This document shows positions 57,124-61,171 of a stretch of 64,000 bases of DNA, one piece after another. This stretch comes from Caulobacteraceae bacterium (lineage in GTDB: Bacteria; Pseudomonadota; Alphaproteobacteria; Caulobacterales; Caulobacteraceae). Each line of letters starts with the position of its first letter. The first letter of the stretch is position 1. Under the pieces are notes generated by a model that did no database searches, had not been told where the DNA came from, and saw nothing but the letters and a program-made list of their open reading frames with translations. The translations under genes and the position numbers were made by a program. The stretch covers positions 1-64,000 of the forward strand of contig JAIBAU010000012.1 of NCBI GenBank assembly GCA_019695035.1, in the 5' to 3' direction.

Positions 57124-58047
57124 CTAGGGCTGCAGCAGGTCCAGCAGGCTGACCCCGCGCAGCTGGGCGATCACCTGGGCGGACGCCTGCACGGAAAGCT
57201 GCGCTTGCTGCAGCTTGGTTATCGCCTCGGCCATGTCGACGTCGGTACGCTTGCCGATGATCTCCTGGAGGCTGTCGACCTGATCCTTCTGGGACGCCAC
57301 GTGGGTGTCGACCCGAGTCTGCAGGGCGCCGTTCCGGGCCGCATTGTTGGTGATGTCCTCGTGGGATTGCTGGAACGAGCCGACGATGCCCTCGAGGAAG
57401 GCGCGCTGGGTGGCGCTGAGCTGGCCGTTGAAGGGTTCGGTCTGCTGAAACTGCTGCACCGCCTTGAAGGCGGTCAGCACGTCGGTCCCCAGTTCGTTTG
57501 CGAGAAAACCGGTCTCCACCACGGTGAAGTCGTCGAGGCGCGAGGCGGCTTTCAGCTGATCGTTCACGAACACGCCGGCCACCGTCGGCGCAGCGGCCAG
57601 GTCGGCCAGGGTTTCGACATTGACGGGCTTGGTGTCGGTGCGGCCTCCGGCGAACAGGAAGCGGCCTTCGTGCTTGGCGTTCAGGGCGTCGACGGCCGAC
57701 TGGAAGCGACCCTCGATGTCGACCATCAGGGCGTCGGCCCGGCCCGATGCGAGCGCGTCGTTGATGGCCTGCCGGACACCGTCGGCGGCCTCGGCGAGGC
57801 TGGTCAGTCCCAGATCCTGTGACGTCAGGCGTGAAGCCACCGCCTCGCCGTTGGCCACGAACCCGTTCAGGCGCGCCTGCGCCGACTTGAAGGCCGTCAA
57901 GGTCTCCGAGGACCGCCCGTAGCCCTTCAGGTCGGTGGCCACCTTCTCGGAGGACACGCGGTTCTGGGCGTCGAACTGCCGCTGCTGGGCGTTCATCAGG
58001 TTGAGCAGGGCCGAATTCCAGCCCTCGCCGGTGGAGACACGGGTCAT
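57124..58047 (-). CDS. flgL: Flagellar hook-associated protein 3 FlgL
   Basis: 307 aa from the ATG at 58047; an in-frame GTG just before it is inside flgK. Flagellin-like N-terminal helix (NLMNAQQRQFDAQNRVSSEKVA) and C-terminal helix (DMAEAITKLQQAQLSVQASAQVI). Overlaps the flgK stop by 1 nt (TGATG). Confidence 0.93.
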   Translation of the reverse strand: MTRVSTGEGWNSALLNLMNAQQRQFDAQNRVSSEKVATDLKGYGRSSETLTAFKSAQARLNGFVANGEAVASRLTSQDLGLTSLAEAADGVRQAINDALASGRADALMVDIEGRFQSAVDALNAKHEGRFLFAGGRTDTKPVNVETLADLAAAPTVAGVFVNDQLKAASRLDDFTVVETGFLANELGTDVLTAFKAVQQFQQTEPFNGQLSATQRAFLEGIVGSFQQSHEDITNNAARNGALQTRVDTHVASQKDQVDSLQEIIGKRTDVDMAEAITKLQQAQLSVQASAQVIAQLRGVSLLDLLQP

Positions 58048-60173: not shown

Positions 60174-60175
60174 GG

Positions 60176-60268
60176 TCAGATGCTCCGACCCGGCAAGGCC
60201 ATCGCCTCACCGGGCAGCATTTGCCCGGCGTCGGGGTGGATCCCCATAGCGAAAGCCTTGAAACACAT
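60176..60268 (-). CDS. Possible 30-aa leader ORF of the flgK-flgL operon
   Basis: ATG at 60268 with GGAGG 7 nt upstream, 30 codons (starts MCFKAFAMG, ends MALPGRSI), TGA 2 nt before the flgK start. It lies wholly in the predicted 5' leader of the sigma54 transcript (start near 60298). Residues 12-30 are Gly/Pro-containing with three Met. No family recalled. It overlaps a candidate FlbD enhancer, which could alone explain conservation. Confidence 0.45.
   Translation of the reverse strand: MCFKAFAMGIHPDAGQMLPGEAMALPGRSI
60210..60228. promoter_or_regulatory. FlbD-box (ftr)-like inverted repeat downstream of the flgK promoter
   Basis: CCGGGCA-N5-TGCCCGG, 7-bp perfect arms, about +70 to +88 from the predicted start. 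Core ATTTGCCCGG resembles the fliF and fliK sites. FlbD sites downstream of start points are known in Caulobacter. Confidence 0.5.
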
Positions 60269-60308
60269 GGACTTGCCTCCAGACGCGCGTCCGTTCGGAG
60301 GGGACAGG

Positions 60309-60324
60309 GGCAAGGACGGGGCCA
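60309..60324 (-). promoter_or_regulatory. Sigma54 promoter of flgK-flgL
   Basis: TGGCCCCGTCCTTGCC on the minus strand: TGG at -24, TTGC at -12, GG-N10-GC spacing exact (consensus TGGCAC-N5-TTGC). Start near 60298. Confidence 0.7.
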
Positions 60325-60400: not shown

Positions 60401-61171
60401 GTGTCCCGCCCAAGCGAGTTCAGAACCGCCGCCGACACCGCGCGCCGTCTCGGCCTGACGGTGCGCGCGCTGCGGGTCTACGAGCGGCACGGCCTGGTGC
60501 GCCCGGGCCGCACGGCGGCGGGATGGCGGGTCTATGGACCCGACGAGGTGGCGCGCCTGCACCAGGTCACGGCCTTGAAGCGCCTGGGCCTCACCCTGGC
60601 GCAGATCGCGGCCCTGTTGCGGGGTCGTGGGGTCGACCTGGAGCGGCTGCTGGCGGCGCAGGAGGAGAACCTCTCGTCGCGCAAGCAGCGCATCGACCGC
60701 GCCCTGCATCTGGTCCGTCGCGCCCGCGCGCGCCTGGCCCGGGGCGAGATCCTTCCCGCGGACGATCTCGTCGAACTGACCAAGGAGACCGTCATGTCAG
60801 ATCAGCCGCCCGGCCCGGAAATGAAGGCCATCTTCGACAAGCACGTGGACGCCGAGCGGGTGAAGCACCTGCACCCCCAGGAATGGACGGCGGCCGATCA
60901 GGAAAAGGCCAGCGCCGAATGGGGCGCCCTGATCGCCGAGGCCGAGCGGCTCAAGGACGGCGATCCCGCCGCGCCCGAAGCCATCGACCTTGCGCGGCGC
61001 TGGATGGCGCAGGTGCGCAAGTTCACCCAGGGCGACGCCCAGCTCAACCAGCAACTGGGTGCGGCCTGGCGCGAGGTCGCGACCGATCCCAAGGCCTCGC
61101 AGCAGATGCCCTTCTCACCGGAGGTCTTTGCCTTCATCCAGAAGGCGCAGGCGGCGGCCGGCGGCTGCTGA
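60401..61171 (+). CDS. MerR-family regulator with TipA-S-like domain
   Basis: 256 aa, GTG start with GGAAGGA 7 nt upstream. MerR HTH (8-75) with TAADTARRLGLTVRALRVYERHGLVRP, dimerisation helix (80-125), then TipAS-like domain (about 135-250; MKAIFDKHVDAERVKHLHPQEW, ARRWMAQVRKFT). Such proteins sense cyclic peptides or drugs. Only Cys is at the C-terminus (GGC), so covalent thiostrepton-type binding is uncertain. Confidence 0.9.
   Translation: MSRPSEFRTAADTARRLGLTVRALRVYERHGLVRPGRTAAGWRVYGPDEVARLHQVTALKRLGLTLAQIAALLRGRGVDLERLLAAQEENLSSRKQRIDRALHLVRRARARLARGEILPADDLVELTKETVMSDQPPGPEMKAIFDKHVDAERVKHLHPQEWTAADQEKASAEWGALIAEAERLKDGDPAAPEAIDLARRWMAQVRKFTQGDAQLNQQLGAAWREVATDPKASQQMPFSPEVFAFIQKAQAAAGGC

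Follow-up and report, generated by a model that had tools for sequence, protein, structure and literature searches.

Why does a reading frame of 30 codons lie between a sigma54 promoter and flgK, and what is selected in it? The question is raised by a stretch of 64,000 nucleotides from a Caulobacteraceae bacterium, which was analysed at its full length and is called the window here. An earlier note on this DNA had described, ahead of the flgK-flgL operon, a sigma54 promoter, a GGAGG 7 nt before an ATG at 60268, 30 codons, and a TGA ending 2 nt upstream of the flgK ATG (60173). All of these elements are present on the minus strand, where the ATG follows the predicted +1 by 30 nt. The features of the locus are as follows:

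60310-60324, minus strand: sigma54 -24/-12 promoter TGGCCCcgtccTTGC (GG-N10-GC), read from the sequence, with a predicted +1 near 60298
60276-60280, minus strand: Shine-Dalgarno GGAGG of the leader ORF, 7 nt upstream of its ATG
60176-60268, minus strand: leader ORF, read from the sequence, ATG 60268, 30 codons MCFKAFAMGIHPDAGQMLPGEAMALPGRSI, TGA 60178-60176
60251-60263, minus strand: IHF-like site TTTCAAGGCTTTC, 7/9 matches to WATCAANNNNTTR, overlapping ORF codons 2-6
60210-60228, minus strand: FlbD/ftr-like site CCGGGCAAATGCTGCCCGG, an exact palindrome (CCGGGCA-N5-TGCCCGG)
60189-60196, minus strand: second FlbD/ftr-like half-site TTGCCGGG, at promoter offset 129, as in Brevundimonas
60174-60190, minus strand: predicted RNA hairpin GGUCGGA-GCA-UCUGACC (MFE), holding the flgK GGAG (60186-60183) and the ORF stop codon
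58050-60173, minus strand: flgK, hook-associated protein 1 (TIGR02492 E=9.9e-78, PF22638)
57124-58047, minus strand: flgL-like second operon gene (PF00700; TIGR02550 E=1.3e-26, below the curated cut-off)

The FlgL of this operon scores 93.9 bits against the curated NCBIfam FlgL cut-off of 127.2, and is thus a divergent FlgL. On the other side, a divergent MerR/TipA-like regulator gene (MerR_1 and TipAS domains, 60401-61168, plus strand) adjoins the flgK promoter.

At the sequence level, the window holds the ftr/FlbD-type class III layout, with the promoter, downstream ftr-like sites and an IHF-like site between them. The candidate FlbD site of the earlier note was borne out as an exact palindrome at 60228-60210, the single exact match to its pattern in 64 kb, where 1.8 would be expected even at 2 mismatches; the sites of the window were called with what we take to be the FlbD/ftr consensus. 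The best IHF-like site of the window leader, TTTCAAGGCTTTC, lies at the offset usual for the family (61-63 from the promoter), and its PWM score is reached by only 7/127962 window positions. For the family, FlgK was searched in whole genomes of Caulobacteraceae and the upstream stretches were taken, giving ~180 flgK leaders, of which 178 distinct ones have a recognisable sigma54 promoter, 142-198 nt upstream of flgK; the element is absent from 5 flgK leaders located in this search. The best match to the IHF consensus (W)WTCAANNNNTT(R) falls 61-63 from the promoter in 145 of the 178 leaders, and WATCAANNNNTTR is matched at 8-9/9 in 110 leaders at a fixed offset, a putative IHF site as judged by its letters. 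CGGGCA/CCGGCA was found in 146/178 leaders and a TGCC[G/C]-type site in 165/178. Blocks common to the aligned leaders are the promoter, the IHF-like motif and two FlbD/ftr-like blocks, at fixed spacing. These data support a conserved downstream enhancer at the DNA level between promoter and flgK, to which IHF and FlbD would bind, and the suggestion of the earlier note that selection acts on DNA holds for the IHF-like and FlbD-like sites and their spacing.

Such an arrangement has a precedent. The flaN/flbG-type late flagellar promoter of C. crescentus, in work of Mullin and Newton in 1993 and Gober and Shapiro in 1992, reportedly has downstream ftr elements and IHF, and flaN is presumably flgK. 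In both, the FlbD and IHF sites for activation of the sigma54 promoter lie 3' of the transcription start. The two systems differ in that the C. crescentus elements were described, by the titles of the papers, as DNA elements, whereas the frame-conserved overlapping ORF comes from the present analysis. Control of late flagellar genes of Caulobacter by sigma54, IHF and FlbD is established (PMC3096577).

Hence, it could be asked whether the region is a DNA enhancer only, with conserved IHF/FlbD sites and an ORF that is a by-product of G+C-rich sequence. The good conservation and spacing of the DNA sites agree with this, as does the fact that the ORF is missing from some clades. The start and first codons of the ORF overlie the IHF-like site, and its middle and end overlie the FlbD sites, so that part of the apparent peptide conservation is DNA conservation; the peptide codons that look conserved (F-[KN]-x-L, [GR]-Q, L-P-G) fall on those sites. 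Moreover, the ORF of the window is by itself unremarkable: the frame is open in 49% of dinucleotide shuffles of the leader, which is no more than chance within one genome. An enhancer without further function was our initial conclusion, and it was dropped because across the family one frame is kept open and distances step by threes.

For the frame test, leaders were picked by the position of the ATG alone, and openness was ignored. A count of 149/178 leaders with an ORF ending near flgK was biased by choice for openness, and sets defined by start position were used instead; the finding that no changes in frame 0 create a stop was likewise set aside as evidence, since the loci had been chosen as open and the argument was circular. 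Genus names of relatives were obtained through shared contigs (G072 through Brevundimonas alba contig L101, G241 through Caulobacter sp. contig L113), and the group g7 probably belongs to Phenylobacterium, judging by similarity. When the ATG stands at one of its usual places, the frame ends within -4 to +11 of the flgK ATG in 127/136 leaders. This comprises 61/62 leaders with the ATG 28-30 from the promoter (Brevundimonas-type), 53/60 with the ATG at 55-58 (Caulobacter-type, including the window) and 13/14 with the ATG at 47 or 51. The +1 and +2 frames of the first two groups ended within even the wider band of -12 to +14 in only 0/62, 1/62, 0/60 and 5/60 cases (6/244 in total). Relatedness lowers the count of independent cases, and figures from representatives are safer. 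Among representatives <75% identical, the frame was open in 18/18 of the Brevundimonas-type versus 8.7 expected from shuffles (P = 9e-7), and in 13/15 of the second group versus 7.2 expected (P = 0.0013); clustering at 70% left 8/8 (P 0.005) and 6/7 (P 0.03) open. Selection on the frame of the leader ORF across the family, far beyond chance, is well supported by these counts.

Distances within the leader suggest the same. ATG-flgK distances of Brevundimonas-type leaders are 113, 122, 125, 128, 131, 134, 137, 140, 143 and 146, all 2 mod 3, a phase kept in 61/62 of them with 136 as the lone exception. From the ATG to the IHF site (34), FlbD1 (69) and FlbD2 (100), the distances are all fixed in most of these leaders, and the spacer between FlbD2 and flgK, which is not part of the enhancer, varies by threes (22, 28, 31, 34, 40, 43 and 46; lone exception 36). 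In a few Brevundimonas-type leaders the FlbD pair is shifted by ~10 nt and the total length is still in phase. The window, with FlbD2 at the Brevundimonas offset and a spacer of 22, has an ATG-flgK distance of 95 nt, again 2 mod 3, and its ATG is in frame with that of Brevundimonas, 27 nt apart. Start, frame and stop are kept although the frame relative to the FlbD sites differs between Caulobacter and Brevundimonas. An enhancer alone leaves unexplained the length steps of three in a spacer outside it, the single open frame of three, and this persistence of start, frame and stop across a change of frame against the FlbD sites. We therefore judge it an unlikely account of the locus.

The earlier note had named a frame or start codon unconserved in relatives as an outcome that would speak against the ORF. 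The ORF survived this comparison, although its start codon shifts between two or three positions and has been lost from some clades. In near relatives the same frame is open, with an ATG start, 33 codons and 92 nt to flgK in g4, and a TTG start, 32 codons and 95 nt to flgK in g9; a purine-rich ribosome site (GAGGAAGTCC / GGAGAAAGTCT) is placed in g4 and g9 as the GGAGG of the window. Among 8 Caulobacter-genus leaders added later, 7/8 contain an ORF that begins with ATG, spans 33-48 codons and ends at -3, +4 or +10; L250 is 18 nt longer than its relatives with the ORF kept, and one clade has its ATG at 53 and a TAG ending at -3. Junctions between ORF and flgK are TGATG (in one Brevundimonas clade), ATGA or ATGTCGCTGA overlaps, or a stop 1-6 nt upstream. 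Once the frame is right, the first codons of flgK supply stops at +4 and +10 for free, and hence the position of the stop counts as independent evidence chiefly for the class whose ORF is in the flgK frame. In this class 18 leaders have the stop at -3 and 2 have it at 0; otherwise the ORF would fuse to flgK. A leader labelled as from a Bordetella sp. MAG (L116, JAFKFS010000030.1) carries a Brevundimonas-type flgK and leader, and is probably mis-binned or mislabelled.

A conserved frame could mean a functional small protein, made first from the operon, which the earlier note had proposed as one reading. The ORF has its own Shine-Dalgarno in the window, its start and frame are conserved, and it is the first frame of the transcript. 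The amino-acid sequence of the leader ORF is not conserved. We compared 44 ungapped close pairs, with flgK codons 2-20 in the same pairs as positive control; these replaced an earlier pairwise synonymous test with a gap-happy aligner, whose ratios were unstable. Single-base codon changes in the leader ORF were synonymous in 84/267 cases versus 75.6 expected (P = 0.14), and its dN/dS-like ratio of 0.86 overall (0.94 and 0.83) is not different from neutral, so that the peptide is close to neutral. In contrast, flgK codons 2-20 gave 116/146 synonymous changes versus 46.0 expected (P = 1e-32) and a ratio of 0.12 (0.09-0.17). Purifying selection on the amino acids of the ORF was thus not found in the 44 pairs. 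Moreover, ORF lengths range from ~29 to 51 codons, the N-terminus moves, with starts that shift by 27 nt, the 3' part shifts in frame against the motifs, the same FlbD motif being read in different frames in different genera, and the peptide has no match in Pfam or NCBIfam. A functional small protein is therefore very unlikely. The family alignment that the earlier note had advised was meant to separate a peptide (synonymous bias) from an enhancer (conservation of the inverted repeat only). These outcomes proved not to be exclusive, as both the frame and the DNA sites are conserved and the peptide is not.

A regulatory peptide, which stalls or attenuates and so senses a signal such as an amino acid or an assembly state, would also sit between a promoter and the first structural gene, and passages of PMC4117421 describe such leaders in Caulobacter (ilvBN, trpS). 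Like them, the flgK leader has a short ORF in the mRNA leader; unlike them, it lacks conserved regulatory codons and a terminator hairpin. No conserved codon runs or peptide occur among the leaders of the family, a search of the leader for a terminator-like hairpin with a T-run gave none, and Rfam has no match for it. An attenuator thus seems extremely improbable, more so than any other reading considered here.

With the amino acids set aside, what remains to be explained is the open frame through the leader. We read the pattern as translation up to flgK because an open frame, a kept phase, a stop at the flgK start and indifferent amino acids are what it requires. Translational coupling is, in our judgement, the most likely role of the leader ORF; that part of the earlier note which concerned coupling to FlgK stands in so far as start, openness and stop at flgK are kept across many genera, and the coupling itself would follow from these. 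Two traits of coupled genes are found, namely an upstream ORF with its own start on what is predicted to be the same mRNA, and a stop that overlaps or abuts the flgK start. In the passages of a review on upstream-ORF translational coupling (PMC12548453), the stop likewise overlaps or abuts the next start (TGATG, ATGA). Textbook coupling differs in joining two functional genes, whereas the product of the flgK leader ORF is not conserved and the ORF overlies a transcriptional enhancer. A third trait, a weak or occluded flgK ribosome site, was not found across the family: most flgK genes have their own Shine-Dalgarno (>=4 matches), and accessibility of the flgK ribosome site is no lower than with shuffled leaders family-wide, with few exceptions (e.g. 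L035, L180). The leader ORF is for this reason described as working like a coupled gene, and is not filed as a proven member of that class. The idea that leader hairpins hide the flgK ribosome site until translation opens them was given up, as the hairpin of the window is not general and accessibility equals that of shuffles.

Translation of the leader might instead serve mainly to shield a long G+C-rich RNA from Rho or RNase E, with reinitiation at flgK as a secondary effect. This needs just an open frame reaching flgK and no peptide sequence, and so fits the same data; strong structure in the leader RNA (z -2.2 to -2.6) and the usual presence of a Shine-Dalgarno for flgK also agree with it. 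Protection alone does not require the stop right at the flgK start that is seen even for ORFs in the flgK frame. As the main role we consider protection rather unlikely. Protection from Rho or RNases, a simpler role, nevertheless fits nearly as well as coupling, and both could act together.

The ORF has been lost from several clades of Caulobacter (L033, L034, L036, L037, L043, L046 and L052, in which it stops at codon 7 or 11 or lacks the ATG), L040 has ATG-TAA at the usual place and only a later ATG in frame, and L067, L073, L108 and L114 are without a good leader ORF. It follows that the leader ORF is useful and not indispensable. In L033, L034, L036, L037 and L040 the ORF is cut short ~56-80 nt past the promoter, with the Shine-Dalgarno-like AGAAGGAAG kept and the ATG kept in most; the sister leaders L043, L046 and L052 keep the purine run, and the ATG is absent. 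The shortened ORF of this Caulobacter clade could reflect either decay or a different, short-uORF mode. As a control, sigma54 leaders of flagellin genes in the same regulon, which contain ATGs too, showed no consistent ORF end, with frames finishing from -28 to +881 across the family. Since these frames are unconserved, the pattern before flgK does not simply arise in any leader of these genomes.

Perfect matches to TGGCNCNNNNNTTGC numbered 27 genome-wide versus 20 for the reversed control, and are thus mostly chance; only those upstream of flgF (L211) and of a flagellin (L213) look real. In the own-genome flagellin leader (L213, G000:C52, 916-974, minus strand), an 18-codon ORF MSPAAKTASDIQKKDPFT has a stop that overlaps the flagellin start as ATGA. 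The flgF-like gene of the same genome (L211, G000:C55) has its ATG ~2 nt after the predicted sigma54 +1, which suggests a leaderless mRNA.

In our preferred reading, a translated leader ORF of indifferent sequence leads ribosomes across a transcribed enhancer and couples them to flgK, and we consider it probable that both the translation and the coupling take place. At the DNA level, a bend site of IHF type and a pair of FlbD/ftr-like sites would activate the sigma54 promoter from within the transcribed region. The need to transcribe this enhancer would leave the flgK-flgL mRNA with a leader of 125-150 nt. At the RNA level, the frame of the short ORF would cross the enhancer and stop at the flgK start. 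Ribosomes would start at the leader ORF, cross the leader while keeping its RNA covered, and terminate at flgK, where they would reinitiate or raise local initiation; the identity of the amino acids made would be irrelevant. The Brevundimonas-type ATG lies ~3 nt after the predicted +1 without a Shine-Dalgarno, and the frame would thus be leaderless, beginning at or within ~3 nt of the transcription start. In that case, whichever ribosome first engages the nascent RNA would already be committed to flgK.

Short leader CDSs have been mapped in C. crescentus. Passages of a ribosome profiling study (PMC4117421) report 94 new small CDSs, including translated leader peptides, and leaderless starts, which Caulobacter uses often and efficiently (375 mRNAs). 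Like the flgK leader ORF, these are short upstream CDSs of the same bacterial family; the text of the study makes no mention of flg genes.

On a broader proposal our opinion is evenly balanced: Caulobacteraceae may use a content-free ORF, selected only for openness, phase and an end at flgK and leaderless in Brevundimonas, to meet the cost of having a downstream enhancer that is transcribed, and this type may be general wherever sigma54 enhancers lie 3' of the start. Coupling and downstream enhancers are each already known; what would be new is a coupled leader ORF that overlies a downstream sigma54 enhancer. The flgK leader offers a clear natural case in which selection favours that a reading frame exists and keeps its phase, and is indifferent to its product. 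Screens for small ORFs that seek synonymous bias would discard such a frame, and an enhancer analysis would miss it; a conserved frame without a conserved peptide could hence serve as an annotation rule. If coupling is true, it explains how flgK is translated efficiently from a promoter with its enhancer on the transcribed side. It would then also add a translational layer to the flagellar hierarchy of Caulobacter, a model for timed gene expression.
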